DNA of 64,000 nucleotides from Desulfobulbaceae bacterium. GTDB taxonomy: Bacteria > Desulfobacterota > Desulfobulbia > Desulfobulbales > Desulfocapsaceae. The notes under the pieces were generated by a model. It saw only the letters and a list, made by a program, of their open reading frames with translations, made no database searches and was not told where the DNA came from. Position numbers and translations under genes: made by a program. This document shows, in pieces, positions 36,355 to 55,928 of the stretch (position 1 is the stretch's first letter; each line of letters starts with the position of its first letter). The stretch lies in assembly GCA_011390165.1 (NCBI GenBank), contig JAABSV010000019.1:1-64000 (forward strand), written 5' to 3'.

Positions 36355-39300
36355 ATGATCGCAAGTACGGCAACTGCATTGAACCATACAGATCAGCCCA
36401 GTTCGAGAGCAATGAACACGCTCGGACTGTCGAACATGGTCCACCTTTTGCGCCAGAGGGCTCAGGAACACCGGAATAAAACCCTCTACACCTATCTCAC
36501 TGATGGGGAATCGCAAGAGATACGACTGACCTATGGCGAACTCGAACAACGGGCGCTGGCAATTGCGGCGTTTCTCCAAACGCATACCTCTCCTGGTGAG
36601 CGAGTCCTTCTCCTTTATCCGCCGGGCACCGAGTTTCCAGCAGCGTTTTTCGGTTGCCTATGTGCGGGCATGGTCGCCGTGCCTGCCTATCCCCCTCATT
36701 CCAGACAGTTCCTGGCAAACCTCCGGGCAACGGTAGCTGACGCGGGCGCCAAGGTCGCTCTCACCACATCGGCCATCCAGGAAAAGTTCAGAGGCCAGAT
36801 AGAACAGGCTCCCGAACTGGTGTCTCTCAAATGGATAGCAACCGACACCATTGCCGACGAGCTGGCTGAAGGCTGGCAAGAGCCTCCCCTTGCTGCCGAT
36901 TCCCTCGCTGTTCTCCAATACACCTCCGGTTCTACCGGCTTTCCCAAGGGGGTGATGGTCAGCCATGGCAATCTGCTCCATAATTCATCGGTTATCCATG
37001 CCATCTTCGGAAGTTCAGCGGATACCCGCGGCGTCATCTGGCTCCCCCCCTACCATGATATGGGATTGATCGGCGGGATCGTGCAACCGGTCTTCGCCGG
37101 TGGAGATACGATCCTGCTCTCACCGGTTCACTTCATCCAAAAACCGCACCGCTGGCTTATGGCCATCTCCCGTTACCAGGGCACGATCAGTGGCGGGCCG
37201 AATTTCGCCTATGATCTTTGTGTGCGCAAGATTACCGCGGAACAGAAGTCAGGGCTTGATCTGAGCAGCTGGGCGGTTGCTTTCAACGGCGCCGAACCTG
37301 TCAGGGCCGAGACACTCCACCGTTTTGCCGCTGCTTTCGCCTCCTGCGGCTTTCAGCAAAAAGCTCATCTGCCCTGTTATGGCCTGGCGGAAACAACCCT
37401 TATCGCCTGCGGACGGAACAACAACTCGACACCGACTTTTCTGCCGGTGGATGGGCAAGCGTTGAAAGAGGGCCGCCTTGCGCTGAGGCAAGACAATGGA
37501 CAACAGACTGTCGAACTGGTAGGCAATGGCGGCGCGCCGCCGGGGCATGTCATTGTGGTAATCGACCCGAAGAAGCAAACTCCCTGCGACGACGGGACGA
37601 TCGGAGAAATATGGCTATCCGGGCCAAGCGTTGCCCAGGGATACTGGAATCAACCTGAAGATTCCGAGCAGACCTTCCGGGCCCGAATTGGCAATACCGG
37701 CAGAGGCCCTTTTCTCCGCACGGGGGACCTCGGGTTCCTCCATGCCGGTCAACTCTATGTCACCGGTCGCCTGAAAGATCTCATCATCATCCGGGGCCTC
37801 AACCACTATCCGCAAGACATCGAAAGGACGATGGAGAAAAGCCACGCCTCTTTACGGGTGGGTTGCGGGGCGGCGTTTGCCGTTGAGGTCGAAGGCGAGG
37901 AACGGCTGGTGGTGGTGCAGGAACTCGAGCGGGCATACATCAGAAAACTGCATACGGAGGCGGTCATCGGCGCCATACGCCAAAGTATCAGCCGTGAGCA
38001 TGGCATCCAGGCCTACGCCGTCGTGCTCCTCAAGACCGCCACTCTTCCCAAAACCACCAGTGGAAAGGTCAAACGCCGGCTCTGCCGGGAATATTTTCTT
38101 CAAGGTATCCTGAACGTTGTCGCCGAGAGCGTGGGCAATCAGCAAAAGTGTACGGATCTGTCACCCTTCCAGGCATGGGAGAAATCTGATGACCTGGAAA
38201 CGGAAGACCCATTGGAGAGAAGCCACGCAACCCAGTCTTCCATTGCAAAAATGGTGGCGGTTCTGTTGAAGATTTCGTTCTCCAAGGTGGATGTGCATGA
38301 TCCATTGAATACGATGGGCATTGATTCGTTGATGGCCGTGGAACTGAAGACGGCCATTGAGGAGGACATGGGCATCGAAATTCCGGTCGAGGCACTCTTC
38401 ATGGGCGCCAGTATTGCCGACCTGGCGGCGCATGTGCTCTGGCTGGGAACGATGGCAAGAGGGGGCGACGCCAAAGACGGCCCCTTGGGGAAGGTACTCT
38501 CTTCCGGGCGTCAGTCCGGAGACCCGGTGCAAAGGGCCTGTACCGATACAAAAACTCGTGAAGTGCAACCGGAGTACCTCCCTTTTGTCGATTTCCCGGA
38601 ATACCGCAACCTTCAGCAGATCATGCTGGCAATGAAATTACGAGGTATCGACAACCCCTACTTCAGGGAACACGAAGAGGCCAACTCCAGTGGAACCGTT
38701 GCAGCAGCGGATCGTGGCCATATCACCTTTTCCAGGTACAATTACCTGGGCATGTCGGGAGATCCGCTTGTCTCACAGGCCGCCAAAGATGCCATCGACC
38801 GCTTCGGCACCTCGGTTTCGGCAAGCCGAATCGCTTCCGGGCAACGATCGCTGCATCGTGAAATTGAAAAAGAACTCGCCGAGCTGGTTGGCACTGAGGA
38901 CAGCCTGGTCTTTGTGAGCGGGCACGCCACCAATGTGACCACAATTGGCCACCTGTTCGGCAAACAGGACCTCATCGTTCATGATTCCCTGATCCACAAC
39001 AGTGTTATCCAGGGATGCCAACTCTCCCAGGCAACGCATCTTTCTTTTCCCCACAATAACTGGCGGGCCCTGGACAAAATCCTGAGAGAAACGCGGCCCC
39101 ATTTCCGCCGGGCCCTGGTCGTGATCGAAGGTGTCTACAGCATGGATGGCGACATCCCGGCACTGCCGGCGTTTATAAAGATCAAGAAGCGACACGGCGC
39201 CTTTCTCATGGTGGATGAGGCACATTCCATTGGCGTTTTGGGCAAGACGGGCAGAGGTATTGGCGAGCACTTTGGCATCAATCCCGCCGAGGTGGAACTA

Positions 39301-39795
39301 TGGATGGGCACTTTGAGCAAATCCTTTGCCAGTTGCGGCGGTTACATCGCCGGATCCAGAGCCCTGATCGAATACCTGAAATACACGGCACCGGGTTTTG
39401 TCTACAGCGTCGGCATCTCGCCGCCGAATGCGGCAGCGGCGCTGGCCGCCATACGATTGCTGAGGAGAGAACCTGAGCGGGTGACCCGTCTCCGGGAACT
39501 CTCCGGACTTTTTTTCCGGCTCGCCCAGGAAAGGGGTCTGGATACCGGCGCCAGCAGAAGCGGCTCTCCGGTCATTCCGGTGATCGTCGGAGATTCCATG
39601 AAGGCAATACGACTCTCTCAAGCCCTTCTCCGCCATGGTATTGATGCCCTGCCCATGGTGTATCCGGCCGTTCCTGACAAGTCCGCCCGTCTGCGCTTTT
39701 TTGTCAACTGCATCCATACCCCCGAACAGATTCGTTTGACCCTGGATGTCGTCGCGCCGGAACTGGAAGCCTTGCAGCGGATGAACGGCTCCTGA
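36355..39795 (+). CDS. FAAL - acyl carrier protein - alpha-oxoamine synthase fusion
   Basis: This 1146-residue protein has three parts. A fatty acyl-AMP ligase (~20-590) carries YTSGSTGFPKGVM (~188), the FAAL-type LPPYHDMGLIGG and CYGLAETTL. An ACP (~625-700) has the phosphopantetheine Ser in MGIDSLMAVELK (~658). A PLP-dependent alpha-oxoamine synthase (~750-1140) has HNSVIQG, DEAHSIGVLG and the PLP Lys in LSKSFASCGG (~986). The FAAL would activate a fatty acid, load it on the ACP, and the synthase would condense it with an amino acid by decarboxylation, as in serine palmitoyltransferase. An AGAAGGA site precedes the ATG. With CerR-like and GNAT genes nearby it is the likely first step of a sphingoid-base pathway. 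The amino-acid substrate cannot be read from sequence. Confidence 0.9.
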   Translation: MIASTATALNHTDQPSSRAMNTLGLSNMVHLLRQRAQEHRNKTLYTYLTDGESQEIRLTYGELEQRALAIAAFLQTHTSPGERVLLLYPPGTEFPAAFFGCLCAGMVAVPAYPPHSRQFLANLRATVADAGAKVALTTSAIQEKFRGQIEQAPELVSLKWIATDTIADELAEGWQEPPLAADSLAVLQYTSGSTGFPKGVMVSHGNLLHNSSVIHAIFGSSADTRGVIWLPPYHDMGLIGGIVQPVFAGGDTILLSPVHFIQKPHRWLMAISRYQGTISGGPNFAYDLCVRKITAEQKSGLDLSSWAVAFNGAEPVRAETLHRFAAAFASCGFQQKAHLPCYGLAETTLIACGRNNNSTPTFLPVDGQALKEGRLALRQDNGQQTVELVGNGGAPPGHVIVVIDPKKQTPCDDGTIGEIWLSGPSVAQGYWNQPEDSEQTFRARIGNTGRGPFLRTGDLGFLHAGQLYVTGRLKDLIIIRGLNHYPQDIERTMEKSHASLRVGCGAAFAVEVEGEERLVVVQELERAYIRKLHTEAVIGAIRQSISREHGIQAYAVVLLKTATLPKTTSGKVKRRLCREYFLQGILNVVAESVGNQQKCTDLSPFQAWEKSDDLETEDPLERSHATQSSIAKMVAVLLKISFSKVDVHDPLNTMGIDSLMAVELKTAIEEDMGIEIPVEALFMGASIADLAAHVLWLGTMARGGDAKDGPLGKVLSSGRQSGDPVQRACTDTKTREVQPEYLPFVDFPEYRNLQQIMLAMKLRGIDNPYFREHEEANSSGTVAAADRGHITFSRYNYLGMSGDPLVSQAAKDAIDRFGTSVSASRIASGQRSLHREIEKELAELVGTEDSLVFVSGHATNVTTIGHLFGKQDLIVHDSLIHNSVIQGCQLSQATHLSFPHNNWRALDKILRETRPHFRRALVVIEGVYSMDGDIPALPAFIKIKKRHGAFLMVDEAHSIGVLGKTGRGIGEHFGINPAEVELWMGTLSKSFASCGGYIAGSRALIEYLKYTAPGFVYSVGISPPNAAAALAAIRLLRREPERVTRLRELSGLFFRLAQERGLDTGASRSGSPVIPVIVGDSMKAIRLSQALLRHGIDALPMVYPAVPDKSARLRFFVNCIHTPEQIRLTLDVVAPELEALQRMNGS

Positions 39796-39865
39796 TCTCC
39801 GGGTTCCGCAGCATTTTGCGGCAAAACAGCTGCGCTTGCGATGAACCCTTGGACAGGAATGTACC

Positions 39866-40810
39866 ATGATTCTCAACGCACGGGACAAGATCACCCGGTG
39901 CCTGCTATCCCTGGCCAGGACGTCTCTGCTCTATTCCCCCTATTTCCGCTTCCATCTCCCCTGGCCCTCGCAAATCCTCATCGAGAACACCAACTGCTGT
40001 AACGCGCGGTGTGTCATGTGCCCCCGGGACACCCTCAGCCGAAAAAGCGGCTTCATGGAGTTTGCCCTGTTCGAGAAGATCATGAAGGAACTGGCCGGTG
40101 CCAGCCGAAAACCCGTTGTGCACCTGCACGGGTTTGGTGAACCGCTTCTGGACCACTTACTGTCGGAAAGAATCAAACTCGCCAAGGCCTGTGGGATACT
40201 ACAAACCTACATTGTCACCAATGCCTCTCTCCTCTTCCCGGAGACAGCAAGATCACTGATCCTTGCCGGTCTGGATGCGATGAAAATCAGTTTTTACGGC
40301 ACCGACGAAGAATCGTACAATGCCACGATGAGGCAACTGGAATTTACCGTAGCTCTGCAAAACATTAAAGATTTCCTACGGATAAGAAAAGATCTGCAAA
40401 GGCCCGGGCCGAGGTTGATCCTGCAGTACCTACCGCAGGAAAGCAATGGCGCCAAGACAGCCGAGTTCCAATCGCTGTGGCGCTCCCTGCCCGACAAGAG
40501 AAAAGACGACTGCCTGAATATCAGCTCGCTGGACAACTTTGGCGGCGGCAAGTCGTATCACAAGGTCGGAGAAAAGATCGTCTCTGTCTGCTTTTACCCC
40601 TGGTCAGCCCTGTCGGTGCTCTGGGACGGTCGGGCTGTGACCTGTTGTATTGATTACAACGGCATTCAGGGTGTCGGCGACCTGAACGTCCAGAGTATAC
40701 GAGAAGTCTGGAACGGGCCGGTTATGTCGGCGCTGAGAAGGGATTTTGGCAAACTCGATTACAGCCGGTTTCCCACCTGCCGGCGCTGCGATTGGGTCCA
40801 CAGGCGCTAG
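39866..40810 (+). CDS. Radical SAM / SPASM-like protein
   Basis: This 314-residue enzyme has the [4Fe-4S]-SAM motif CNARCVMC (~residues 46-53, CxxxCxxC). The barrel has HGFGEPLLD and VTNASLL, typical of MoaA/PqqE-type enzymes. A C-terminal Cys-rich part (CFYPWSALSVLWDG, TCCIDYNG, CRRCDWVHRR) resembles a SPASM or twitch cluster. It is 70 nt downstream of the FAAL-ACP-AOS gene on the same strand, so it may modify the lipid or a peptide partner. Substrate is unknown. Confidence 0.85.
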   Translation: MILNARDKITRCLLSLARTSLLYSPYFRFHLPWPSQILIENTNCCNARCVMCPRDTLSRKSGFMEFALFEKIMKELAGASRKPVVHLHGFGEPLLDHLLSERIKLAKACGILQTYIVTNASLLFPETARSLILAGLDAMKISFYGTDEESYNATMRQLEFTVALQNIKDFLRIRKDLQRPGPRLILQYLPQESNGAKTAEFQSLWRSLPDKRKDDCLNISSLDNFGGGKSYHKVGEKIVSVCFYPWSALSVLWDGRAVTCCIDYNGIQGVGDLNVQSIREVWNGPVMSALRRDFGKLDYSRFPTCRRCDWVHRR

Positions 40811-40855
40811 ACAAATGCTGCCCCCATCCCACCCATCTCAACCATCTCACCCATC

Positions 40856-41971
40856 TCAGGCACCTTCTTCCCACTGGGTGACCACCAGGCCAAGGATAAA
40901 GACGACGGCTGCGAAGGCCCCAATGACTGCAGCGTTATGCAACGCCGTCACGCTGTCATTGACCACCATGGCTGCTCGCAGGCCCTCGTTGAGATAGTAC
41001 AGCGGCAAGGTCTTGGCAAATGACTGGAGGAAGTCCGGCATCATCTCCAGCGGGAAGAAGCTCCCAGAGAGGAACATCATCGGGAACATGATGGCGTTGG
41101 CAGCTGCCGAGGCGCTTTGTGCCTCTTTGACGATCCGGGTGAGGACCATCCCTATGCCGACGAAGGAGAAGACGGCAAGCACGATGAAAAGCGGCAGCCA
41201 GGCGTTGATGTCCAATTGTATGCCGAACACCGCGTAACTGACCAGCAGCATGAGGGTGGTGGATATGACCGCCAGAATGAACTGGTGGAGAATATTTGCC
41301 AGTATCCAGTCGGCACGGGTAATGGGCGTGGTGGCCAGCTTTCTGATGATCCCTTTCTGCCGGAGCTCCGTGTTGACGTGGACCGTGCCGAACAGGCTCT
41401 CGGTCATGATTGCCATGGCGATGATGCCGGGGATGAAGAACTCGAGAAAGCGGTATTTTCGGGTGTGGATCGATACTTCCGTGGTCCGGATGAACGGCGG
41501 TTTCGCCGACAGCCTCTGGTTGATGGCGGCGAAGACCCCGTCGAGGAGTTGCATCTTCTCGACCACCGAACTGGAACTGGGGTCGTACACATAGCTGAGG
41601 GTAACGAAGGCATTCGGGTCGCCGAATTGCAGATACTGCATGAAGGATTCCTGGTAGCCTTTGGGAATAACGAGGACCAGGTTTGCCTTGCTGTCCTCAG
41701 TGGACTTTGCGGCGTCCACAGCCGGGTCAACCGTGATTATGTTCAGCTTCCCGGTAGCGGCGAGGGCCTCGGCGATCTCCGCTGAAGCGTCGGTCTGGTC
41801 AAGATCCTGCAGGTACAGGTTGAAGTGCAACTTGTCATCGTCCATGAATATGGTGCCGAAGACCAGGATCAGAAGGATCGGGAACATGGTCGTGAAGAAC
41901 ATGGCCGTCTTCTCGCGGTAGAAACTTTTGAGACTCACCACCAGATTGGCGCCGACAACACGAAGATTCAT
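40856..41971 (-). CDS. ABC-2 type transporter permease
   Basis: This 371-residue permease has one N-terminal helix (~20-40), a large extracytoplasmic domain to ~175, and five C-terminal helices with the ABC-2 motif region MTESLFGTVHVNTELRQKGIIRKL (split) and FLSGSFFPLEMMPDFLQ. It overlaps the ATPase by 4 nt. The type exports lipids, polysaccharides or drugs. As last gene of the lipid operon it is a candidate exporter or flippase of the product. Confidence 0.9.
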   Translation of the reverse strand: MNLRVVGANLVVSLKSFYREKTAMFFTTMFPILLILVFGTIFMDDDKLHFNLYLQDLDQTDASAEIAEALAATGKLNIITVDPAVDAAKSTEDSKANLVLVIPKGYQESFMQYLQFGDPNAFVTLSYVYDPSSSSVVEKMQLLDGVFAAINQRLSAKPPFIRTTEVSIHTRKYRFLEFFIPGIIAMAIMTESLFGTVHVNTELRQKGIIRKLATTPITRADWILANILHQFILAVISTTLMLLVSYAVFGIQLDINAWLPLFIVLAVFSFVGIGMVLTRIVKEAQSASAAANAIMFPMMFLSGSFFPLEMMPDFLQSFAKTLPLYYLNEGLRAAMVVNDSVTALHNAAVIGAFAAVVFILGLVVTQWEEGA

Positions 41972-42918
41972 TGTGCCCCCTGCTCCCCGACCGTGTCCTG
42001 ATGGAGCGCCTCGCCGGTCAGCTTCAAAAAGACCTGTTCGAGGTTCGGTTTGCGAACGTCCATGCTGAGAAACGACGCCCCGCCATCTTCGATGGCGTTC
42101 AGTATCTTCCGGATGTCATCCGTCTGCGCTACCCGCACCAGGATGGCCCTGTTGTCCTGCTCCGGCGTAAAACCCATCTGGGCAATGATTTCCAGGGCTC
42201 TTGGATCAACGGACTGGAGGGTGAGTAGCAGATAATCGGCGTTGCCTTCGATGAGCTGGTCGGGAGAGCCCATGGCGATTGCCGAGCCTTTGGAGATGAT
42301 GGCGACCGTATCGGCAAGTAGCTCAGCCTCTTCCATATAGTGGGTTGTTAAAAAGACCGTCTTCCCCTTCTTCTTCAGGCCGAGGAGAACGTCCCACACC
42401 TGGCGTCGGGCACGGGGGTCGAGCCCGGTGGTCGGCTCATCGAGAAAGACGACCTCGGGGTCATTGACCAGTGCAATGGCGATGCCAAGACGTTGCTTCA
42501 ACCCTCCGGAGAGGGTCGTGTACTGTTCCCCGGTCTTGTCCGTGAGGTTGACGAGCGCGATCAACTCGTCGATATCGGTGTGGCTGTGGCCGAAAAGGCG
42601 CGAGTAGTACTCCATGGTTTCCCTGACCGTTATCCTGTCAAAAGAGCTGAACCCCTGTGGCAGAACCCCGATACGGCGGACGATGTCGTACTTTTTCCTG
42701 GTGACGTCCATGCCGAGAAGGCGTACTTTTCCCGAGGTTGGCCGGCGGATGGTTTCGATGATCTCGACAGTGGTGGTTTTGCCGGCTCCGTTCGGGCCGA
42801 GGAGAGCGAAAACCTCACCCTTCCTGACCTTGAACGATATGTTGTTCACTGCCAGATCCCCCCCGTACCGTTTGCTCAGATGTTCAACCTCGATGGCATA
42901 TTCCGTTTCGTTGCCCAT
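41968..42918 (-). CDS. ABC transporter ATP-binding protein
   Basis: This 316-residue ATPase has Walker A LGPNGAGKTTTVE, signature LSGGLKQRLGIAIALV, Walker B VVFLDEPTTGLDPRARR and the H-loop TTHYMEEAE. A C-terminal ~80-residue extension resembles DrrA/NodI-type exporters. It partners the overlapping ABC-2 permease. It follows the PKS gene by 98 nt. Confidence 0.92.
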   Translation of the reverse strand: MGNETEYAIEVEHLSKRYGGDLAVNNISFKVRKGEVFALLGPNGAGKTTTVEIIETIRRPTSGKVRLLGMDVTRKKYDIVRRIGVLPQGFSSFDRITVRETMEYYSRLFGHSHTDIDELIALVNLTDKTGEQYTTLSGGLKQRLGIAIALVNDPEVVFLDEPTTGLDPRARRQVWDVLLGLKKKGKTVFLTTHYMEEAELLADTVAIISKGSAIAMGSPDQLIEGNADYLLLTLQSVDPRALEIIAQMGFTPEQDNRAILVRVAQTDDIRKILNAIEDGGASFLSMDVRKPNLEQVFLKLTGEALHQDTVGEQGAQ

Positions 42919-43016
42919 GAATCAACCTTCCGCCTCGGCAGGGCGATGGTCGGAAAACCCCATCATCTTTGCTTGCCGTTGCCTGTCGACAAGAGCAATG
43001 GACACAGTTGGCAGAC

Positions 43017-46000: not shown

Positions 46001-49000
46001 GATCCTCTGCCTGAAAGTGCGGGTCCATCTCTTGGCGGATGGCTGCCAGGAAAACGGGGGTAAGGAGGCCGCCAGAGGTATCGAAGACAAACCGGTTGAT
46101 CTCCCTTTGGATGATCGTTTCCAGCGGGGCGGCGCCGACACCCCCCCCCATCGCCACACCCACACCCACCGGTTCAGGCGCCGGTGAAGCGGCTGCTGAT
46201 ACGGCCGGCTGCGATTCGGCAACCGGTGCGGCAGGGAGAAAGATTGTCCGCAGTTCTCCTGGCACCGGCAAAACCCCGTGCGCGAACAGCTGGGCAAGGG
46301 CCGTGGTGTACGTTGACCGTTCGGCTGCCGGCAGGCAAGTCTGGATGCATGCCGGGGCAGGGAGCGAGTCGCTGATGAAGCTGCTTAGTATATCGCCCGG
46401 GCCCACCTCAACGAAGAGCCTGACGCCGAAGTCATGCCACAGGGTCTGGACATTCTGCTGCCAATGGACAGGCGATTCCAGATGGGCTATCAGGATACGT
46501 TTGATCTCGCCGGGGTCGGATGGATACGGCGCCATGGTCGTGTTGGAAATGACCGGAATTTGGGGGGGGTGAAAGGGTATGGCGGCAAGGTAGGTCTCCA
46601 ACTCAGCTCGAATGGTGCGCATGATCGGGGAATGAAAGGCCATGCTCACCCGCAGAAGGGTAGCCCTGTAGCCGCTCCGTTGCAATCTGGTGCAAAAATC
46701 ATTAACCGCCTCGGTCTGACCGCTGACAACGACCTGCAGTGGTGAATTGATATTGCTGATATGGACCTCTTTTGCCCCTCCCTGGAGCATCTCCTGCAGC
46801 AGCTCCAAGGGGGCATCCACCGCCGCCATGATGCCGGGATCGACATTCTGCCCAGCCGCCTTGTCCATGCACAACGCCCTCTTGTTGACGATGCCAAATC
46901 CCTCCTCCAGGGAATAGACTCCGGCCAGGCACAAGGCAGTCAACTCGCCCAGGCTGTGGCCCGCCAGGGCAACCGGGCGGATCCCCAGGGCAGTGAGGTA
47001 ACGAGCCATGGCATATTCCAACACGAACAGGGCTGGCTGCTGCCATCTGGTCTTGTGCAGATTCTCCTCCTGGTCATGGAACAGGAGGTTCAGGAGGTCA
47101 AATTCGGCCACCGCTGCAAGCCGATCCATCTCCTCCCTGATAAACGGAAACGACTCATAAAGTTCCCGCCCCATGCCTGCATAGTGGGTTCCCTGCCCCG
47201 GAAACACCAAAGCCAGCGGTGGCGAGGGCAGATCGGCATTACCGATAAAGATTCCCTCTGCCGCCAGGGAGCGCCGGGCCTGGGGGGTGACGCCTCCGCC
47301 CTCGACAAGATGGCCGGAGCTGTCAATAAGACTGAGTGCCTCTTCTTCAGATTCTGCCACCACCGCCAGCCGGCTGTTGTGGCCATCCAGCCTGGTTTGA
47401 AAGAAAGAAAGACCCGCCATTACAGGGAGGCACGCTCCTGCCTCTCCAGCGAGATGTGTCGCTGCCTCCCCAACGAGCAGTGGCCCTGCCGCCACATCGG
47501 TCGTGGGGCCAGCCTTGTCTTCGACAAGAGTGGGCGCGTCGCCCGGCAGTATGAGGATCGCCCCTGCTGTATCCATGGCCTGTTCCAGCTGCACGACGTA
47601 GTTGGAGCCGCCAAAACCGAAGGCATTGACCTGAACTCGGCGCAATCGGCCGTCCTTACACTGCCAGTCAAGTGGCTCGGGGGCGATCAACAGGCCCGAT
47701 CCTGTCAGATCCATCGCCGGGTCCGGGTGGTGGTAGTTGAGGGTAGGGGGAAAAATCCCTGCCTTCATGGCCATGACGCCGCGAATGAGGCTGTTGATGC
47801 CCGAGGCGCCAAGGGTGTGTCCGATCTGTGATTTGAAAGAGGTGAGAACGGTGCGACTCGAGGCAGTGAAGAAGGACTTGAGGGCGCGGACTTCTTCGAC
47901 GTCGCCTTGGCGGGTACTCGTGCCATGGCATTCCACCAGGTCCACCGCCTCGGGTCCATAGGCTGTCTCCCGGAAAGAGGTTCGGATAGCGATCGCCTGG
48001 GTTCGACTGGCGGATTCGACCATACCCAGATGGTTGTTGCTCGCCCCCATGCCGGTGATGACGGCGTCGATGCGTGCGCCTCGGGCCCGGGCCGAACCCT
48101 CCCGCTCCAGGACAATCATGCCGCCGCCTTCACCCAGGACCATCCCGTCCCGTTGCGCATCAAAGGGGCGAGAGGTCTCGCGGGCCGGCCTTTCCTGCCC
48201 CGACAGCCCATACAGGGCGCCGAGAGCGGAGAATTCAAGAAAATGAAGATGGGTGAGATTCTCCTCGCCGCCACCGACGATGGCGGCATCGATGACGCCG
48301 CTTTTGATCATCTGGATGGCACTGTAGAGGGCAACCAGCGAGGTGGCACAGGCCGCCGAAACCGCAAAGCTTGGCCCCATGAAGCCATAGCGGTTACAGA
48401 TGAAGCCGGCCGCCGCACAGTTGAGTCTGCCCAGGAGAGAGGTGTCGTCAGGGGCCATGCGACCGGACCGTATCTCCCGCTCGATGGCGCTCCGTTGATC
48501 TGCTGTCAGGTGTATGGCCCTGGCTATCGAGCCGACAATATCATGAACATGCGCCCTGATGATGGTATTGGTGAGGGTCCCCGCCGCCTCGCCCGAGTTT
48601 TGCGAGATGAGAACGCCGATCCGTTCAGGCGGGATGTCCGATTCGAGAAGACCGGATGCCCGGATGGCCTGGTCGGCAAGCCACAGGGTGATCTTGGTGG
48701 CCTGGGTCATGGTCCGAAAATCATGGGGAGGAATACCGAGTTGCTGGCGGGAGATCGGAAAATCGAGGAAGGCGCCCACCTGGCAGTAGGTCTTGTCCGG
48801 GATCTGCGGCCGGGGATCATAAAAAAGGCTGTGGTCCCAGCGTGAAGGCGGCACCAGGGTGATCCCGCTCGCCATGGCCAGGCTTGCCTCCCAGACCTCC
48901 TCCGGGCTGCTTCCCAGGGCATTGAGAATGCTCATCCCGGTGATGGCGATGCGAACACCATCACTGCGAAGCGGTGCACCTTGCTGCCGGGCCCGATCCA

Positions 49001-51098
49001 CCCCGGGAAGAACTGTTTGCCGATTTTTGCCGATCGGTTCAGCAAAGGGTTGATGGAGCAACAGTGCGCCTTCGGCCAGCTGTCGGTGGAAGGACTGCAG
49101 CTCCTGGACCGTGCCGATGAGTCCGGCACAGCTTCCACTCATGAATTGCCCGCGTTCCAGGCAGGCCTGTTCGGAAAGTGTTGCCCCGCCGGGTCGGTCC
49201 ATGCCGCGGGCCGCAGCAAAGAGGCTTCCCGTGGTCATCTCTTCCATGCTCGTGCGGAAGGAGTGCTCGTCCTGCAGGCCCGCGGCGAACTGCCGTTCAA
49301 GGGCTTGAACCGCCTCTGTTCTCTCGGTCCGCAGGGATCGCACCCGAAGTCCGGTGACCTGGCCTGAGACGACTGTTCCACCCGGAGTCGCCGCCAGGAC
49401 CATCCGCTGATAGAGCGGTGTCAGGGCACCCGTTTCGACAATCTCCCGGCTGGCCAGGTAGGCGGTTCCCATCTGGATGGCATCCGCTCCGAGCATGGCG
49501 GCCAGGAAGGCGGTCTCCCGGTTGCAGATTCCCCCGGCAAGAACAAGACGACAGCCGTCAAACAGGGAGGGGTCCAGGCGTCTGAATTCCAACACCTTTT
49601 GCGCCAGGGTGAGGGTGCTATGGCGTCCCACATGACCGCCGGCCTCGTACCCCTCGATAATCACATAGCGAACGCCGGCTTCAAGGGCAAGCCGCAACAG
49701 GGACTCGTCAGGGGCGATGTACATGACCTCGATGCCGTCTGCCAGCAATTCCCGTACCGGTGAGAGGTCGCCGCCGGCGATCACCACAAAACGGGGCGGG
49801 TGTTTCCTTATCCAGGCCAGTTGGCTCTCCTTGCCCGGGTTCTCCGCCAGCAAAACGATGTTGACTGCATAGGGGTTGTCTCCCATGATCTCCGACAAAC
49901 GTCCCAGCCGCTGGTCAATGGTCGCCGCATCCATCGAACCGAGGGCGATGGTGGGCAAACCACCGGCCTCGGCAACACGCAGGGCAAACTCGGGGAGATC
50001 GGTGATCCAGGACATGGCCCCCTGGATAAAGGGGTATCGGGTTCCCATCTCCCTGGCAACAGCGCTCTCCACAAAGCAATCCCTGTTCGCTTCAGCGAGG
50101 CGGCAACAGTTGCCAATTTCCGTCATGAAGGAGGTGACGGCCTCTTCACTTCCGGTGCCAAAACGAGTGGCGAAGGTGGCCGCGAAGGCGGATTCCACTC
50201 CCAGAGGGATGATCTCCTCCGAGCCAAAATGGCTGGAGAGAGGCTGAAGAGACGCGGCAGTCAGCCGTTCAGCGAAGAAACGGCGGTCCTGTTCGCTGAT
50301 CTTGCCTTCGCAGAGCGAACTCTCATACTCCCTGATCTCCTTAAAGGCCGTCGAGTTGCCCTTGTTGAACAGGCGACACGGAACCTGCACATCAAGGCCG
50401 ATGAGATCGGTGGAATCGAGGCGGAGGTTGGCAATCCGCTGGCGTTGGTCGTCATCGAGGCCAACCAGGTCGGTCAGCCAATGGAGGCTTTCAAAGACCA
50501 CCCCCTTCGCGCCGGTGGTCAGAAAGGCCGCTGCCGCCTCAGCTGTGGAGATGCCACCCCAGAGAACGATATCGACGGTGTGCGACAGGTTGGAGATCAT
50601 CTCTTTGGCTGCTGCATGGAGGGCGAGCGTCGTCTCGTTGCTGACGAATCCGCCGGCCTCGCAACCTTTCAAGGCAATAGGCCCGATTGCCGAGCTGTCC
50701 GGCAAGATGGCCGCTAAAAATGCCAGGTCGCCAATGATTGGCAGGCAACGGCAGATGTTCGACAACTCCTGCACTCTCTGCAAAAAGAGGGACGAATCAC
50801 CGGGGAAAAGCAGCGGTTGACATTCGATCCAGATGTTTTCGATCCCTGTATCGGGCAGCAACTGCGGCAACGAGAAAGAGAGGAAAGCAGCGGCGGAAAT
50901 TTTGATATCCCGGACCGGGCCGGCAGAGGCGGCTTTTCGTAGGGCAGTGGCAAAGAGAGGTTCCACCTCCAGCAGGGAGAAATCGACGATGGCCCTGCTC
51001 CCTGTTCGCTGGGCCATTTGGTTCACCGCCGAGATGCTCTCCTCGGGCCGCCAAACGAATGCAATGATTGGACTCCGCTGTTCAGACAATATGTCCAT
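43017..51098 (-). CDS. Iterative PKS / PUFA-synthase-like: NMO-NMO-KS-AT-ACP-KR-DH
   Basis: This 2693-residue protein opens with two nitronate-monooxygenase-like barrels. The first (~1-290) is degenerate. The second (~340-640) keeps FMN motifs (EGYEAGGHVGRH, GADAIQMGTAYL) like the PfaD enoyl reductase. KS (~735-1180) has Cys in SAACATSLVAL (~918) and His in ECHGTSTRQGD and SQIGHTLG. AT (~1290-1590) has GHSLGE (~1381). A Pro/Ala linker leads to an ACP (~1745-1825, Ser in LSIRSSRLP), a KR (~2050-2300; GGATGIGSH, active Tyr in INYAAANRMM) and a hotdog DH (~2415-2690) with HRPLSFVKHP, i.e. HxxxGxxxxP with Gly changed to Ser. No thioesterase is present. The architecture suggests iterative lipid assembly. 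GGAGG lies almost directly against the ATG, so the TTG three codons later could be the real start. Confidence 0.88.
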   Translation of the reverse strand: MDILSEQRSPIIAFVWRPEESISAVNQMAQRTGSRAIVDFSLLEVEPLFATALRKAASAGPVRDIKISAAAFLSFSLPQLLPDTGIENIWIECQPLLFPGDSSLFLQRVQELSNICRCLPIIGDLAFLAAILPDSSAIGPIALKGCEAGGFVSNETTLALHAAAKEMISNLSHTVDIVLWGGISTAEAAAAFLTTGAKGVVFESLHWLTDLVGLDDDQRQRIANLRLDSTDLIGLDVQVPCRLFNKGNSTAFKEIREYESSLCEGKISEQDRRFFAERLTAASLQPLSSHFGSEEIIPLGVESAFAATFATRFGTGSEEAVTSFMTEIGNCCRLAEANRDCFVESAVAREMGTRYPFIQGAMSWITDLPEFALRVAEAGGLPTIALGSMDAATIDQRLGRLSEIMGDNPYAVNIVLLAENPGKESQLAWIRKHPPRFVVIAGGDLSPVRELLADGIEVMYIAPDESLLRLALEAGVRYVIIEGYEAGGHVGRHSTLTLAQKVLEFRRLDPSLFDGCRLVLAGGICNRETAFLAAMLGADAIQMGTAYLASREIVETGALTPLYQRMVLAATPGGTVVSGQVTGLRVRSLRTERTEAVQALERQFAAGLQDEHSFRTSMEEMTTGSLFAAARGMDRPGGATLSEQACLERGQFMSGSCAGLIGTVQELQSFHRQLAEGALLLHQPFAEPIGKNRQTVLPGVDRARQQGAPLRSDGVRIAITGMSILNALGSSPEEVWEASLAMASGITLVPPSRWDHSLFYDPRPQIPDKTYCQVGAFLDFPISRQQLGIPPHDFRTMTQATKITLWLADQAIRASGLLESDIPPERIGVLISQNSGEAAGTLTNTIIRAHVHDIVGSIARAIHLTADQRSAIEREIRSGRMAPDDTSLLGRLNCAAAGFICNRYGFMGPSFAVSAACATSLVALYSAIQMIKSGVIDAAIVGGGEENLTHLHFLEFSALGALYGLSGQERPARETSRPFDAQRDGMVLGEGGGMIVLEREGSARARGARIDAVITGMGASNNHLGMVESASRTQAIAIRTSFRETAYGPEAVDLVECHGTSTRQGDVEEVRALKSFFTASSRTVLTSFKSQIGHTLGASGINSLIRGVMAMKAGIFPPTLNYHHPDPAMDLTGSGLLIAPEPLDWQCKDGRLRRVQVNAFGFGGSNYVVQLEQAMDTAGAILILPGDAPTLVEDKAGPTTDVAAGPLLVGEAATHLAGEAGACLPVMAGLSFFQTRLDGHNSRLAVVAESEEEALSLIDSSGHLVEGGGVTPQARRSLAAEGIFIGNADLPSPPLALVFPGQGTHYAGMGRELYESFPFIREEMDRLAAVAEFDLLNLLFHDQEENLHKTRWQQPALFVLEYAMARYLTALGIRPVALAGHSLGELTALCLAGVYSLEEGFGIVNKRALCMDKAAGQNVDPGIMAAVDAPLELLQEMLQGGAKEVHISNINSPLQVVVSGQTEAVNDFCTRLQRSGYRATLLRVSMAFHSPIMRTIRAELETYLAAIPFHPPQIPVISNTTMAPYPSDPGEIKRILIAHLESPVHWQQNVQTLWHDFGVRLFVEVGPGDILSSFISDSLPAPACIQTCLPAAERSTYTTALAQLFAHGVLPVPGELRTIFLPAAPVAESQPAVSAAASPAPEPVGVGVAMGGGVGAAPLETIIQREINRFVFDTSGGLLTPVFLAAIRQEMDPHFQAEDLFSALKSMFGASEPLPGGTPNHSDARDATNATDAAVALPQSLVPSLWPADPGQASAPPAELSEHQGLMERLIGIIMDATGFNRDEIQPEMDLRQDLSIRSSRLPVIMDAAERHFAITIELEDFIDVRTVQDIAQRIAKILAAQKGASPQPSATPGDSGLERHGVPSLAEDEVNLKRLVFRQVAVERGAAISMALSPGESVLLLSPDREDKRAGKVRDILKRALRLDPLPMQFLPGNAGADNDEGEDIRTAEGAARAAERIGNLKSLAGMVVLLPQGEADRSAGMEDVARLLRGFFVLLQAFLQEPGKKFVVLIHCGEESNTPAGLLAEGMLGLFLSAAQECPAVQFRTLAIDRDTDLRAALGDALDRGYPMVEMAHRAGRVCTGEGHIAPFLSTDAAGLALRPGDVVVMSGGATGIGSHLARSLAPFHPRLVFLGRTVLAPWMQSRQPGSTAPSTESSASEKRAQEIVRTLTELQNAGVEASYHTCDVTDPEAVRVVMGEVVNRYGPIRGIIHGAGVLRDTFLSQMTADDFSLVTDCKFLGAWNLFEAVEKADLRFFVGLSSVAAIQGNFGQINYAAANRMMAALIKAFRQKHGTICCKALMLPPIEGAGMAENPHVRDLMKRLGASYLQVVELAGLFCRELFLSPADDDWVLFMRALPAVPTARLNVSPCRLPSGETESGLESFDREHFPLIEGISSLDLRRERLEAFRTFDREKDLWIEDHRPLSFVKHPLVSATMFLETFMEAARLLYPYLQVRGVRNVRFINMIECPPGVQRPAKISCCRVDTGLQEVVCEATLITREISPTGRLTEHFSPHCKGQVILDGGESGGHLGGNLPDFSVHPDTLQLGPMERAKVLEWYHDHNGLTDRYRVLESFDGIGPDVIRGQTISRQSDDFANLANAHYQYSPYLFEALLQLTALYCVAMEKPELRAMIPLEIGEMRFCRKCRVGERIILEARLRAQSEQGFTWEARGLDEQGCTIMQIANLRMHWVAE

Positions 51099-51131
51099 AC
51101 CTCCGCTGCAAGCTGATGGTCCCCTTTTCAG

Positions 51132-52256
51132 TCATGATAACGACCTCCTGTATATCGAATATTTCTTGTGTACTCGTGCCCCGGCTTCCTCCACCAGAGA
51201 GTTGATCGATTCGTTGTCCTCCAGGGTCCAACCCAGTTCCAGGGAGCGATATGTGCCTTTGTTTCGCACCACCTCATACAGGTGGCGGATGGCCAGCAGG
51301 GGAAGTCCCAGCTGCCGATACTTCTCCTTTATACCGAAGAGTAATGCCCGCAAGCCGCTGATCTTCCGGCGATAGAGGAGGATCTTCAGCAATCCCGACA
51401 AGCCGATGCGCCCGTTGAAGCGCTTGAGCAAGGGGTTGATGTCGGGCAGGATAACGCAGACCCCTGCCGGTTCGTCCTCGTAGTAGATAAAAAAGGCGAG
51501 GTCTGGATCGGCAATTGCCACCATGCTTTTCCCCATTTCCCGTATCTCATGATCGCTTAAAGGGACGTAGCCCCAGTTGCCCGACCAGCAGTCGTTGAAA
51601 ATCTCCCTGACCAGGGCAAGTTCAGGAACTGGGTCCTTGAGCCGAAATGGCCTGATGTGGATACCCTTTTTCTGCGCCAGCCGTTCGGCCAGACTCTCCA
51701 TCCACTCGGGCAACCGGTACTCGCCGTCTATGATGAAGGAAAAGAGGTCTTTTTCTTTGCTGGCACCGCACGATTCGATCAATCGCGGATAGTACGGCGG
51801 ATTGTACGGCATCATCAATGCCGGCGGAGAATCAAAGCCGTCAATGAGCAAACCAGCCCCGTAATTGAGGGACGGATTAAGCGGGCCTCGCATGAAGGTC
51901 ATCCCCTTCCGGCAAAGCCAGCTCTCCACCGACGAGAAGAGGGCCGCTGCGACCTCGGTGTCGTCAACACATTCGAAGAATCCCCAGATGCCCATCTGCT
52001 CAGCATGGAAGGCATTGTGATGGCGATCAATGATGCCGGCGATCCTGCCCACCGTCTTTTTGCCACGCCGGGCCAGAATGAGGATACGCTCGGAAAATTC
52101 CCAGAAAGGGTGGCTAGCCGAATCAAGCAACCGGCGAACCTCCTTTTTCAGGGGAGGAACCCATTGCGGGTAATCAGCATATATTGTCCAGGGCAGGTCG
52201 ATGAACTCTTTGAGCTCTGCTTTGCCAGCCACCGTAACGGTTTCAATATTGGCCAT
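51132..52256 (-). CDS. GNAT-fold acyltransferase, candidate bacterial ceramide synthase
   Basis: This 374-residue soluble protein has marks of the long GNAT-type family that includes the bacterial ceramide synthase: YPQWVPPLKKEV near 30, FWEFSERILILARRGKKTVGRIAGI, RGPLNPSLNYGAGLLIDGF (~125), MMPYNPPYYPRLIE, and a second GNAT half with REIFNDCWSGNWGYVPLS. It lies between the CerR-like gene and the PKS in one operon. By family it would N-acylate a sphingoid base from acyl-CoA or ACP. I rate the family assignment good and the ceramide assignment as inference from context. Confidence 0.7.
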   Translation of the reverse strand: MANIETVTVAGKAELKEFIDLPWTIYADYPQWVPPLKKEVRRLLDSASHPFWEFSERILILARRGKKTVGRIAGIIDRHHNAFHAEQMGIWGFFECVDDTEVAAALFSSVESWLCRKGMTFMRGPLNPSLNYGAGLLIDGFDSPPALMMPYNPPYYPRLIESCGASKEKDLFSFIIDGEYRLPEWMESLAERLAQKKGIHIRPFRLKDPVPELALVREIFNDCWSGNWGYVPLSDHEIREMGKSMVAIADPDLAFFIYYEDEPAGVCVILPDINPLLKRFNGRIGLSGLLKILLYRRKISGLRALLFGIKEKYRQLGLPLLAIRHLYEVVRNKGTYRSLELGWTLEDNESINSLVEEAGARVHKKYSIYRRSLS

Positions 52257-52320
52257 GGTTGCTCTTTTTTCGGAATGCTCTGTTACAAAGGTTGAACAGC
52301 GACAGGTCTTGGCAAGTTGG

Positions 52321-53301
52321 TTAGAGCCAATGTTCTTTTCTGTACCAGGCGACCGTCAATGCAGCCCCCTGAGCAAGAGTTATCCGCGGCTCGAAACCGA
52401 TGAATTCGATGGCCTTGCCAATGTCGCAGAGCCAGTTCGCACAGCCCATTTCCCTGACCCTGCCTCTGCTCAGGATGGCGGGCTTGCCGCTGACTCTGGC
52501 GAAACATTCAGCGCAGAAGGCCATGCCGAAGAGCAGCTGTCGAGGCAGGCGGAGTTTCAGGGCGTTTATCGCCATCGCCTGTGCGAAGACATCGCCGATT
52601 TCCGCCAACCGGTAATCGTGGCCATCGGACAGGAAAAATATTTCCCCGCTCCTTGTCTGGCTCTCGGCAGCGAGAAGGATTGCCCGGACCAGATCGCCAA
52701 CATAGCAAAGACTGATATGCTGCTCGGGGCCGAAGAGACAGGGGTTGATGTTTTTGGCCAGCCATTGGCAAAGAGTCAGAAAACCTGTATCCCGAGGACC
52801 ATAGATGGCACAAGGCCGCAGGATGAGGAGAGGGAGTTCATCGGCGTGGGACAAGGCCAGCTCCTCCCCCAGTAATTTGCTTTTGCCATAGGGCGAGACC
52901 GGCTCGCAGGGGTCGGATTCATTTTTCCTGCCAGCACCCGGACACGGCCCTGCTGCCGCCTGGCTGGAAAGATAGATAAATTTTTCCAGTCGGCTGTTCT
53001 GCTCGATGCAGGTTTCGACGAGGTTCCTGGTCCCCAGTCCATTGACCTCGAAGAAGGTCTTTTCTGCTACCGCCAGCGTTGCCCCGGCAAGATGAAAAAC
53101 CTGGTCGACGTCCAGCACAGCCTGTCGCAGCGATGACTTTTCTTGACAATCGCCGACGACAATCTCAACCGGCAGGTCGGTAAGCCACCCCAACCTGTCT
53201 TTGTCCCGAACCAGACACCGGGTGTCGATGCCTTTACGAACAAGCGCCTCGGCCACGTGACTGCCGATGAAACCTGTTGCCCCGGTAAGCAGAACCTTCA
53301 A
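52321..53301 (-). CDS. NAD-dependent epimerase/dehydratase family, CerR-like reductase
   Basis: This 326-residue extended SDR has the N-terminal GATGFIGSHV motif, YLSSQAAAGP and the catalytic PYGKSK pair (Tyr/Lys in YxxxK) followed by ILRPCAIYGPRD. In Caulobacter an epimerase-like protein of this class (CerR) reduces the 3-keto group in ceramide synthesis. The start codon is TTG at 53301, preceded by GAGGGA. The gene lies between the GT-B-like and GNAT genes. Alternatives are sugar epimerase or 3-beta-hydroxysteroid-type dehydrogenase. Confidence 0.75.
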   Translation of the reverse strand: MKVLLTGATGFIGSHVAEALVRKGIDTRCLVRDKDRLGWLTDLPVEIVVGDCQEKSSLRQAVLDVDQVFHLAGATLAVAEKTFFEVNGLGTRNLVETCIEQNSRLEKFIYLSSQAAAGPCPGAGRKNESDPCEPVSPYGKSKLLGEELALSHADELPLLILRPCAIYGPRDTGFLTLCQWLAKNINPCLFGPEQHISLCYVGDLVRAILLAAESQTRSGEIFFLSDGHDYRLAEIGDVFAQAMAINALKLRLPRQLLFGMAFCAECFARVSGKPAILSRGRVREMGCANWLCDIGKAIEFIGFEPRITLAQGAALTVAWYRKEHWL

Positions 53302-53346
53302 TCTTCATTCCCTCGACGAGTAACCAGAATCGCTGCCATGGTACCG

Positions 53347-54321
53347 TCATCCTTCTTCAAGAATCCGGCGGCAGACATTGGCGATGTTCAAGGCTGCCGA
53401 CCCATTCTGCAGAGGCATCAGGGCTTGCAAGGTGTTCATGTCAAAGTCTGAGTATGTCTCCTTGCCAAGCGCCACGCCGACAAAGGCGGTTGACGAAAAG
53501 CGAGTGATCAGTACAGCGCAGTTGGCGATCAATTCATTGGCGTCCCCAGCCGTAAAAACCATGGCTTCCGGGGCGTTTGCCCGTATTTCCCGGCTGGCAC
53601 GTCGGCAGTTTTCGTTCGGATGAAGTTTGAATATGAGCTGCCGTTTACCGGCAATTCTCACTGCCTTTTTGATGAAAGCCAGACGATTTTCATAGCGGAA
53701 CACCTCCCTCATGTTGGACGTGCAGGCGAGCACATAGTTGCTATAGGGAAAATCATTCAGGCAATATTGCCGGCAGTTATCGAAATTTGGTATTCCCGTC
53801 ACCACTATCTTCTCGTACTGAGCACCTCTTTGGCTGAAGAAATCACGGTAGCCCTCGCTGGCGACACAAAATACCCGGTATGCATTGCTCAGTCCCGTCA
53901 TTGCCGTATCCGCCATCCATCTCGGCAAAAACCGAAAGCGTTTGACGAGATGATACATGATGGATGCAGAGTCGATAATTCCCTCCTGAACCAAGACGAT
54001 GGTCTTGTCACGAATGTTTTTCTGGAGATAGACGTCAGTACAGGTAACCACCAGGTCGTACGGTTGATTTGTTCCCTGGTAATCGATGACAAGACCATGG
54101 TTCTGCAGATACTGCCGACAGAGTTCCACCATCTTCTTCCCTGCGATTGTGAATTCGATCAGGCCGAGTCTTCGCAGCATCTCATCAAACCCATGACAGT
54201 AAAAGGGCGAAAAGGACAGCTCGTAGTCGGAAAGGTGTTTGGAGATCTGGTGCATTTGTGTTGTTTGATTCATCGAACCGCAGATGAAAAGTATCCTTTT
54301 TCGCATGTGCACCAGGCTCAT
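53347..54321 (-). CDS. GT-B-like transferase (CDP-glycerol/capsule glycosyltransferase type)
   Basis: This 324-residue protein has two Rossmann-like halves: RKRILFICGSMNQTTQMHQI at the start and, in the second half, KIVVTGIPNFDN, the FKLHPNEN motif common in capsule and CDP-glycerol transferases, and TAGDANELIANCAVLITRFSSTAFVGVALG (split), which resembles the nucleotide-sugar donor site. No transmembrane helix is clear. It is the first gene of the - strand lipid operon, so head-group attachment is plausible. The start may be 54321 or the ATG at 54306; neither has a strong ribosome site. Confidence 0.65.
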   Translation of the reverse strand: MSLVHMRKRILFICGSMNQTTQMHQISKHLSDYELSFSPFYCHGFDEMLRRLGLIEFTIAGKKMVELCRQYLQNHGLVIDYQGTNQPYDLVVTCTDVYLQKNIRDKTIVLVQEGIIDSASIMYHLVKRFRFLPRWMADTAMTGLSNAYRVFCVASEGYRDFFSQRGAQYEKIVVTGIPNFDNCRQYCLNDFPYSNYVLACTSNMREVFRYENRLAFIKKAVRIAGKRQLIFKLHPNENCRRASREIRANAPEAMVFTAGDANELIANCAVLITRFSSTAFVGVALGKETYSDFDMNTLQALMPLQNGSAALNIANVCRRILEEG

Positions 54322-55833: not shown

Positions 55834-55928
55834 GGCTGTACACCTCGAGGGAATTTTCCTGCTCTTTTCTTACCGCACCGACAAGCTCCTCGAGCCCATC
55901 GGGGCGACCAGGCTGAAATGGTCATATA

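Follow-up and report, generated by a model that had tools for sequence, protein, structure and literature searches.

How does a bacterium that carries the genes for a ceramide-type lipid come to keep a polyketide synthase (PKS) among them, and which part of the lipid would that synthase supply? The question is raised by a locus at positions 36355-54321 of the stretch analysed here (the window), i.e. bases 1-64000 of contig C19 (JAABSV010000019.1; 66,955 bp) in the genome of a Desulfobulbaceae bacterium (GCA_011390165.1, here G000; 3.59 Mb in 108 contigs, 91% complete), which a preliminary description had read from its letters as a PKS-coupled sphingolipid-like biosynthesis locus. The ceramide reading is supported by homologues of the ceramide genes of Escherichia coli, by the recurrence of the locus in a genome of another family (G104), and by an exchange of parts in Desulfotignum. 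A sphingolipid-type product of some kind is very probable from these comparisons, and we put at roughly 0.58 the probability that two chains of separate origin are joined here into a ceramide-type lipid, which then receives a head group and is exported.

The boundaries of the open reading frames (ORFs) agree exactly with those given earlier. The genes are arranged in two convergent operons that meet at ~40.8 kb. The plus strand encodes a fusion of a fatty acyl-AMP ligase (FAAL), an acyl carrier protein (ACP), and an alpha-oxoamine synthase (AOS), directly followed by a radical SAM protein, which had been described as lying beside the AOS gene. The minus strand encodes, in the order of transcription, a probable glycosyltransferase (GT), a short-chain dehydrogenase/reductase (SDR), a tandem-GNAT protein, the PKS, an ABC ATPase, and an ABC permease, with intergenic gaps of 45, 64, 33, 98, and -4 bp. 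The gene set does occupy a single locus, but the AOS and radical SAM genes do not belong to the PKS operon because they lie on the opposite strand. The features, with domain calls made using Pfam and NCBIfam, are as follows.

36355..39795, plus strand: FAAL-ACP-AOS fusion of 1146 aa (AMP-binding/FAAL, PP-binding ACP, and class I/II aminotransferase domains by Pfam/NCBIfam).
~36433-38118, ~38224-38436, and ~38605-39753, plus strand: FAAL, ACP, and AOS parts of the fusion, respectively (domains).
39866..40810, plus strand: radical SAM/SPASM protein (domains; nearest PDB match BtrN).
40856..41971, minus strand: ABC-2 type permease, putative exporter (domains).
41968..42918, minus strand: ABC ATPase (domains; best NCBIfam match DrrA, below cut-off).
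42919..43016: gap of 98 bp, where G104 and Desulfotignum have a phosphopantetheinyl transferase (PPTase) gene and the window has none.
43017..51098, minus strand: monomodular PKS of 2693 aa (domains; catalytic motifs in an alignment of 19 homologues).
Within the PKS, minus strand: NMO-like N-terminus (by motif); FabK-type enoyl reductase (ER), 49185-50048; ketosynthase (KS), 47733-48953; acyltransferase (AT), 46359-47207; ACP, 45594-45797; ketoreductase (KR), 44226-44783; dehydratase (DH), 43029-43400 (Pfam part), its N-terminal half by motif from ~43853.
51132..52256, minus strand: tandem-GNAT N-acyltransferase, homologue of YghO/bacterial ceramide synthase (sequence, tree, AlphaFold, Foldseek).
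52321..53301, minus strand: CerR-type SDR of the epimerase/dehydratase family, TTG start as called (domains, identity).
53347..54321, minus strand: probable GT-B head-group transferase, a weak family call (sub-cut-off NCBIfam/Pfam matches).

Five structural genes for bacterial ceramide have been described, namely aasR, acpR, spt, cerR, and cerS (PMC11324152), and in E. coli B AasR, AcpR, and serine palmitoyltransferase (SPT) have been assayed and yghO (ECD_02850) is listed as the N-acyltransferase homologue of CC_1154 (PMC9386255; both sources are cited from part of their text). We compared the window with the E. coli set in the plasmid copy on NZ_MG591698. The FAAL is 35% identical to AasR over 529 positions, the AOS 33% to SPT, the GNAT protein 33% to YghO over 379 positions, and the SDR 28% to its counterpart; the ACP gave no match to AcpR and matched PKS ACPs instead. 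Since FAAL, AOS, GNAT, and SDR all match at 28-35%, homologues for the five functions are judged to be present together, three of them fused in one protein and with the reserve that the ACP resembles those of PKSs. Both the agreement with known ceramide steps and the fusion of the AOS to FAAL and ACP had been proposed before. Compared with the five-gene pathway of Caulobacter and E. coli B, the window has three functions fused, an AOS outside the SPT clade, and a PKS-like ACP, and it adds the PKS, the radical SAM gene, and the ABC-2 exporter. One AOS match at E<=1e-50 and one GNAT match at E<=1e-15 are present in G000, so the locus would be the only such route in this genome.

In the pathway that we propose, the FAAL would activate a free fatty acid and load the fused ACP, and the fused AOS would condense the acyl chain with an amino acid, most likely L-serine, to yield a 3-keto-sphingoid base. 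The FabK-ER/KS/AT/ACP/KR/DH synthase would use its own ACP to assemble an acyl chain with few oxygen functions or double bonds left (largely reduced), and the tandem-GNAT protein would transfer this chain onto the amine of the base. The SDR would reduce the 3-keto group either before or after N-acylation, the GT and perhaps the radical SAM enzyme would build the head group, and the ABC-2 transporter would export the lipid. We infer all of these chemical steps, and the specificity for serine, from the observed gene content, homology, kept catalytic residues, linkage, and clades.

For the GNAT protein, no strong family was found in Pfam or NCBIfam; the Pfam GNAT match was sub-threshold (E 0.0015) and PDB sequence searches gave marginal GNAT matches (E 0.29; best 0.0045 with a profile). 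An AlphaFold model based on 44 sequences (pLDDT 91.1) retrieved tandem-GNAT structures in Foldseek, such as 2wpw (E 9.3e-14, TM-score by query length 0.58) and 5kf1 (E 1.6e-13). Its match to YghO, a member of the bacterial ceramide synthase family (bCerS/CerS/YghO), extends over the full length, and it is 31% identical to the N-acyltransferase of Sphingomonas parapaucimobilis, whose gene lies ~6 kb from genes for an ACP, an SPT-type AOS, and an NAD(P)H-binding protein. The resemblance to bacterial ceramide synthase noted earlier is thus borne out. We also scanned named genomes (one genome per species, best 80 relatives) and sorted the GNAT loci by their identity to the window GNAT. Among the matches listed, 73 loci lie below 47%, with an AOS within 3 kb in 32, an SDR in 31, both in 20, and the PKS in none, i.e. 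the family recurs beside AOSs and CerR-type SDRs. The seven loci at or above 47%, again among the matches listed, have the PKS in six cases, an AOS within 3 kb in none, and an SDR in one; in the seventh (L143), the contig ends 1.3 kb behind the GNAT gene. AOS-GNAT-SDR runs, which are ceramide-type gene sets, were also seen on actinobacterial plasmids (L134, Streptomyces; L136, Rubrobacter).

Three loci titled Deltaproteobacteria (L185, L194, and L196) contain SDR-AOS-GNAT runs, and the window SDR is 56-58% identical to their SDRs, 56% to one in L172, where no AOS match was found, and 56% to that of a GNAT-AOS-SDR run in G405. That the reductase would belong to a ceramide pathway is indicated most strongly by this relationship to ceramide runs lacking a PKS, which also upholds the earlier CerR-like assignment through close relatives in AOS-GNAT runs. 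Membership of the GNAT and epimerase proteins in unrelated families, which the preliminary description had named as telling against its reading, was looked for and was not what these comparisons returned. HpnA was considered for the SDR and rejected (135 bits against a cut-off of 368; for comparison, 98 and 119 bits were obtained with SDRs from two canonical runs).

The PKS and GNAT genes are 33 bp apart in the window, and their linkage extends to other genomes. In a GNAT tree of 125 rows (a quick tree with SH-aLRT support), the PKS lies within 2.6 kb of the GNAT gene in 18 rows, all of which fall in one 43-row clade (SH-aLRT 100); the rest of this clade comprises 5/6 rows from genomes with the PKS elsewhere, 17 Desulfovibrionaceae-type rows, and three others (G401, L143, and L150). 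The comparison within the phylum of sulfate reducers to which G000 belongs (Desulfobacterota) covered 395 genomes: a GNAT match was obtained in 117 and an ER match in 31, and 15 of the latter have a window-type ER (at least 46% identity). The window-type PKS occurs in 10 of the 11 genomes with a GNAT of at least 47% identity, on the same contig in seven of the 10, versus five of the 384 others, with both thresholds (47 and 46%) chosen after the data were seen. Genes of relatives are longest-ORF calls, metagenome-assembled genomes may miss genes, and the rows are not independent. A linkage in close kin only was rejected, because it is found in families f1, f4, f21, f22, f63, and f103 and in genomes labelled Nitrospirota and Myxococcota. 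Constant adjacency was also rejected, because the two genes are on different contigs in G488, G417, and G215 and Desulfovibrionaceae-type GNATs occur without the PKS. The preliminary description had left to the PKS either the sphingoid base or the N-acyl chain; adjacency to the GNAT gene favours the N-acyl chain over the base, and we consider a flow from PKS to GNAT rather probable. Neither a coupling of a PKS to a ceramide synthase nor an FAAL-ACP-AOS fusion was found in our searches of open-licence PubMed Central, and the strings 'sphing' and 'oxoamine' were not found in the available part of PMC13291983.

The origin of the base was approached through the AOS. A careful IQ-TREE phylogeny of 60 rows was used, from which long-branched, short, paralogous, or replaced rows (L234, L236, L237, L239, L246, and L248) had been removed and to which five rows had been added; a first quick tree of 61 rows agrees with it. 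A clade of 16 rows (100/100) unites the window AOS with that of G104, although the position of the window AOS inside the clade is unsure (89/46). Its AOSs are encoded behind a type I PKS gene or form part of a protein with PKS domains, and its members include Pseudomonas, Paraburkholderia (one gene between), Planktothrix, Streptomyces, G311, G250, and G322. The clade containing the SPTs of E. coli and Sphingomonas is separate (30 rows; 98/97) and does not include the window AOS. With five AOSs that adjoin type I PKSs or are fused to them, the window AOS shares 53-56% identity; SPT, BioF, and Kbl are about equally distant from it (31-33%). The alignment shows equivalents of H159, D231, H234, K265, and R390, to which we ascribe the catalytic roles that we take these residues to have, as well as an SPT-type SK at the position where E. 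coli BioF and Kbl carry GK; the GHATN and HN marks of the window AOS are common to the PKS-associated clade. The SK motif and the clade led us to reject the possibility that the protein is simply BioF or Kbl. By its clade, the window AOS is a PKS-associated (SgaB-type) enzyme, with the kinship to SgaB itself judged from the locus type.

In Pseudomonas fluorescens MYb115, the PKS SgaA and the AOS SgaB make C24-C28 sphinganines, and PKS-derived bacterial sphingolipids have thus been in print since 2025 (PMC12134224, cited here and below from part of its text). The window resembles the SgaAB cluster in its PKS-associated AOS type (by locus type) and in the presence of an iterative type I PKS, but it differs in the fusion of its AOS to FAAL-ACP, in the type of its PKS, in having a homologue of ceramide synthase, and in coding for a CerR-type SDR where the SgaAB cluster has SgaC, a homologue of 3-ketodihydrosphingosine reductase (KDSR). 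As in SgaAB, the PKS chain could pass to the AOS and become the sphingoid base, with the FAAL only priming or salvaging and the GNAT protein using ordinary acyl-CoA or acyl-ACP. The PKSs that accompany the AOS clade and the experimental work on SgaAB (PMC12134224) favour this route, and the window lacks an SgaA-type PKS, so its sole PKS could serve base-making. However, the KS of the window PKS is only 26-34% identical to the PKS KSs of five SgaB-type loci, the PKS is linked to GNAT and not to AOS, genomes with this PKS have AOSs of at least three clades, and the window AOS already has its own FAAL and ACP. In addition, G503 has an SgaA-type PKS and AOS pair and, separately, a FabK-PKS-PPTase-GNAT-SDR operon, as if one synthase served each chain. 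A base made by the window PKS is therefore a minor, if real, possibility beside the N-acyl role preferred here.

AOSs are presumably also part of the fungal fumonisin and sphingofungin clusters. Likened to these by description, the window differs in being bacterial and in having the FAAL-ACP-AOS fusion and an N-acyltransferase; the likeness consists in PKS-derived sphingolipid-like products and a clustered gene for a KDSR homologue, as described in PMC12134224. Within the phylum, SgaAB-type PKS-AOS pairs were seen in G250, G311, and G322 (L118, L119, and L129) and in G503 (L274), with G250 also carrying a GNAT of the window's clade. In Desulfovibrio piger ATCC 29098 (L175), which we take to be a gut species, a GNAT of the same clade lies beside an SDR. 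To judge by these genes, all five are possible sphingolipid makers.

The amino acid used by the AOS bears on the type of base. If alanine or glycine were used, 1-deoxy-type bases and N-acyl amino ketones would result, the other steps being as proposed above. The position of the AOS outside the SPT clade and its nearly equal distance from SPT, BioF, and Kbl would allow this, and in the Black Sea a correlation has been described between 1-deoxyceramides and genomes of Desulfobacterota and/or Bacteroidota (PMC11334938, cited from part of its text). SgaB, from the same type of locus, is nonetheless virtually exclusive for L-serine (PMC12134224), and the SPT-like and KdsR-like genes of Desulfotignum fit a serine-derived base, which makes alanine or glycine unlikely.

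Whether the genes belong together at all can be judged from their relatives. They could be neighbours by chance and serve separate pathways, as the two strands and the lack of linkage between AOS and PKS-GNAT in most relatives would permit. However, the whole set recurs with its gene order unchanged in G104, a genome of the same taxonomic order and another family; the proteins are 58-80% identical, and a PPTase gene is added. The reading frames of the PKS and the ABC ATPase are fragmented in G104, through either mutation or assembly error. Desulfotignum has the same PKS, GNAT, ABC, radical SAM, and GT genes with another AOS and SDR. Recurrence of the set and order in G104 makes a chance assembly very improbable, and the synteny check suggested in the preliminary description thus found the combination in G104 and, with swapped parts, in Desulfotignum. 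In Desulfotignum G498 (L145 and L279, taken as one contig from the length of 26,265 and the gene order), a single strand carries GNAT-PKS-PPTase-ABC ATPase-ABC permease-radical SAM-GT-AOS-SDR, the radical SAM protein being 67% identical to that of the window. The best match of its AOS is SPT (491 bits; cut-off 640) and that of its SDR is 3-ketodihydrosphingosine reductase (KdsR-like; 305 bits, cut-off 400). The two enzymes that differ are those expected for sphingolipid steps, while GNAT, PKS, ABC, radical SAM, and GT stayed, and this replacement supports a sphingolipid product. In the other Desulfotignum genome (G497), a reductase ORF (L283:2915-4776) directly follows the GT gene. No AOS gene is left between them, but the reductase ORF begins with residues similar to those at the start of the G498 AOS, so that either the genome has undergone a deletion or the assembly is faulty.

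The PKS has the domain order ER-KS-AT-ACP-KR-DH, with an N-terminal FabK-type ER and the ACP between AT and KR. The catalytic motifs (KS Cys-His-His, AT Ser-His, KR Tyr, and DH His) are present in 19 of 19 aligned homologues, and those of the ER in all 18 that cover it. A fully reducing iterative synthase that forms a mostly saturated chain would be expected from this composition. The PKS beside the AOS of G311 has the order KS-AT-DH-ER-KR-ACP with a zinc-type ER, which the window PKS does not fit. The best NCBIfam matches are PKS_plus_SDR (547 bits; cut-off 1740) and PfaA/TIGR02813 (423 bits; cut-off 1010). The protein had been called a polyunsaturated fatty acid (PUFA)-synthase-like PKS; it scores too low for PfaA, and the PUFA label is loose. 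It resembles the PUFA-like secondary lipid synthases of Shulse and Allen 2011 (PMC3098273, cited from part of its text), which are iterative PKS/FAS systems with a PfaD/FabK-type ER, KS, AT, ACP, KR, and DH and have an adjoining PPTase, as do the window's relatives. Unlike these, the window PKS is one polypeptide with an N-terminal ER, one ACP, and one KS match (Pfam), falls below the PfaA cut-off, and is tied to a ceramide-synthase homologue; 'sphingo' is absent from the main text of that paper.

A PPTase-family gene adjoins the PKS in G104, G006, L144 (with a 4-bp overlap between its PPTase ORF and that of the GNAT), and L145, and ORFs of the same cluster (c4; two of its 10 ORFs were scanned, plus those of L144 and L145) occur in seven more loci. 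A search of plasmids with the whole PKS gave 131 records, none covering 80% (best place, 38%). Some PKS genes have no close GNAT, and in five such loci the neighbour is an ORF from a cluster of B12-binding radical SAM proteins. One of these ORFs (L110:16447-17970, behind the PKS of G215) encodes a B12-binding radical SAM protein that matches TIGR04072, a lipid biosynthesis family with ladderane in its name, at 319 bits (cut-off 360), and ORFs of this cluster (c3; two members scanned) also occur near the PKS in G488, G417, G423, and G435. A monomodular PKS with a radical SAM gene and, in the part of the source cited, no AOS has been described (PMC3908369). Elsewhere in G000, contigs C42 and C99 contain open frames of 11,127, 4,406, 7,336, and 3,614 aa with many KS domains, which by these domains are large modular PKS or PKS-NRPS (nonribosomal peptide synthetase) clusters in a 3.6-Mb genome.

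The fate of the lipid depends on the remaining genes. The GT had been described as a GT-B head-group transferase; its matches are weak and below every cut-off (TIGR04396, E 4.4e-8; PF04464, E 0.038), no match was obtained in a PDB sequence search, and the GT-B assignment is no more than probable. A homologue lies beside the radical SAM gene in Desulfotignum (67.5% in G498 and 69% in G497). Radical SAM matches at E<=1e-30 were found in three of 21 searched genomes (G104, G497, and G498). The exporter genes were recognized as described before, by ATPase and ABC-2 permease domains at 40856-42918, and a permease also follows the ATPase in G104 and both Desulfotignum genomes. In G036, G061, and G006 (family f1), a GT2-type gene lies between GNAT and SDR; that of G036 matches Pfam GT21, with HpnI, below cut-off, as the best NCBIfam match. 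Upstream of the locus, on the same strand, is a gene for a GH94 (cyclic glucan synthase-like) protein (region 54718-63995), and the ORF between them (54718-55833) matched no family in Pfam or NCBIfam.

The lipid could also be an anchor or primer for a surface polysaccharide instead of a free sphingolipid, for which we assume an equivalence with rhizobial RkpA/RkpG. The weak GT matches are to surface carbohydrate proteins and the GH94 gene is nearby, while relatives of the AOS lie amid capsule, KDO (3-deoxy-D-manno-octulosonic acid), and lipoteichoic acid (LTA)-synthase-like genes on a Pseudomonas plasmid and amid capsule and LTA-synthase-like genes on a Paraburkholderia plasmid. These two capsule loci carry short genes annotated GNAT (~200 and 227 aa). 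However, no capsule assembly family was found among the window proteins scanned with the family libraries, and the window has a full-length YghO-type protein and a CerR-type SDR, which together make a polysaccharide anchor quite unlikely.

Several findings weigh against the proposed two-chain ceramide-type lipid. An AOS lies in the examined stretch of only four of the 18 PKS-GNAT loci (the window, G104, G006, where it is ~4 kb from GNAT, and G498), several of the others being short contigs. For the 17 Desulfovibrionaceae-type GNATs of the same clade, this PKS was found neither next to the gene nor elsewhere in the genome as searched, and conversely the PKS occurs in five genomes with no GNAT of at least 47%; the pairing is thus not obligatory. 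The window AOS is below the NCBIfam cut-offs for SPT (SerpalmtaseCFB, 310/640 bits; BetaP, 280/500; AlphaP, 234/670), and its best NCBIfam AOS model is BioF (347.5 bits; cut-off 426). G497 has the cluster without an SPT-like AOS, its one AOS match at E<=1e-35 being Kbl/BioF-like. The SDRs of other PKS-GNAT loci are 28-41% identical to that of the window (33-41% in G006, G061, G036, G441, and G382), i.e. less than those of PKS-free ceramide runs. The modelled tandem-GNAT fold alone does not separate ceramide synthases from other N-acyltransferases. The PKS ACP has [RK]SSR where DSL is usual in 19 of 19 aligned PKSs (window residues 1791-1815), and the window cluster has no PPTase gene, with one ACPS-family match elsewhere in the genome.

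PKS-derived bacterial sphingolipids were already known (PMC12134224); a PKS of the FabK-ER type tied to a ceramide-synthase homologue was not among the systems that our searches returned. As a general scheme, which we hold tentatively and at somewhat less than even odds, an iterative megasynthase would hand its chain from its ACP directly to a ceramide-synthase-type GNAT, and the base would come from an interchangeable module (FAAL-ACP-AOS, an SgaA-type PKS with AOS, or an SPT-like AOS), the system occurring in several families of the phylum and reaching genomes with Nitrospirota and Myxococcota labels. If this is true, bacterial ceramides could carry chains from a lipid megasynthase of their own and would not depend on housekeeping fatty acid synthesis alone, and base formation and N-acylation would be exchangeable modules of the pathway. 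Desulfobacterota are suspected of making sphingolipids that are still unassigned in anoxic settings (PMC11334938); carriers of this system would be candidates for such producers, and genomes could be searched for them with the pairing of a FabK-ER PKS and an adjacent GNAT of the window's clade as marker.

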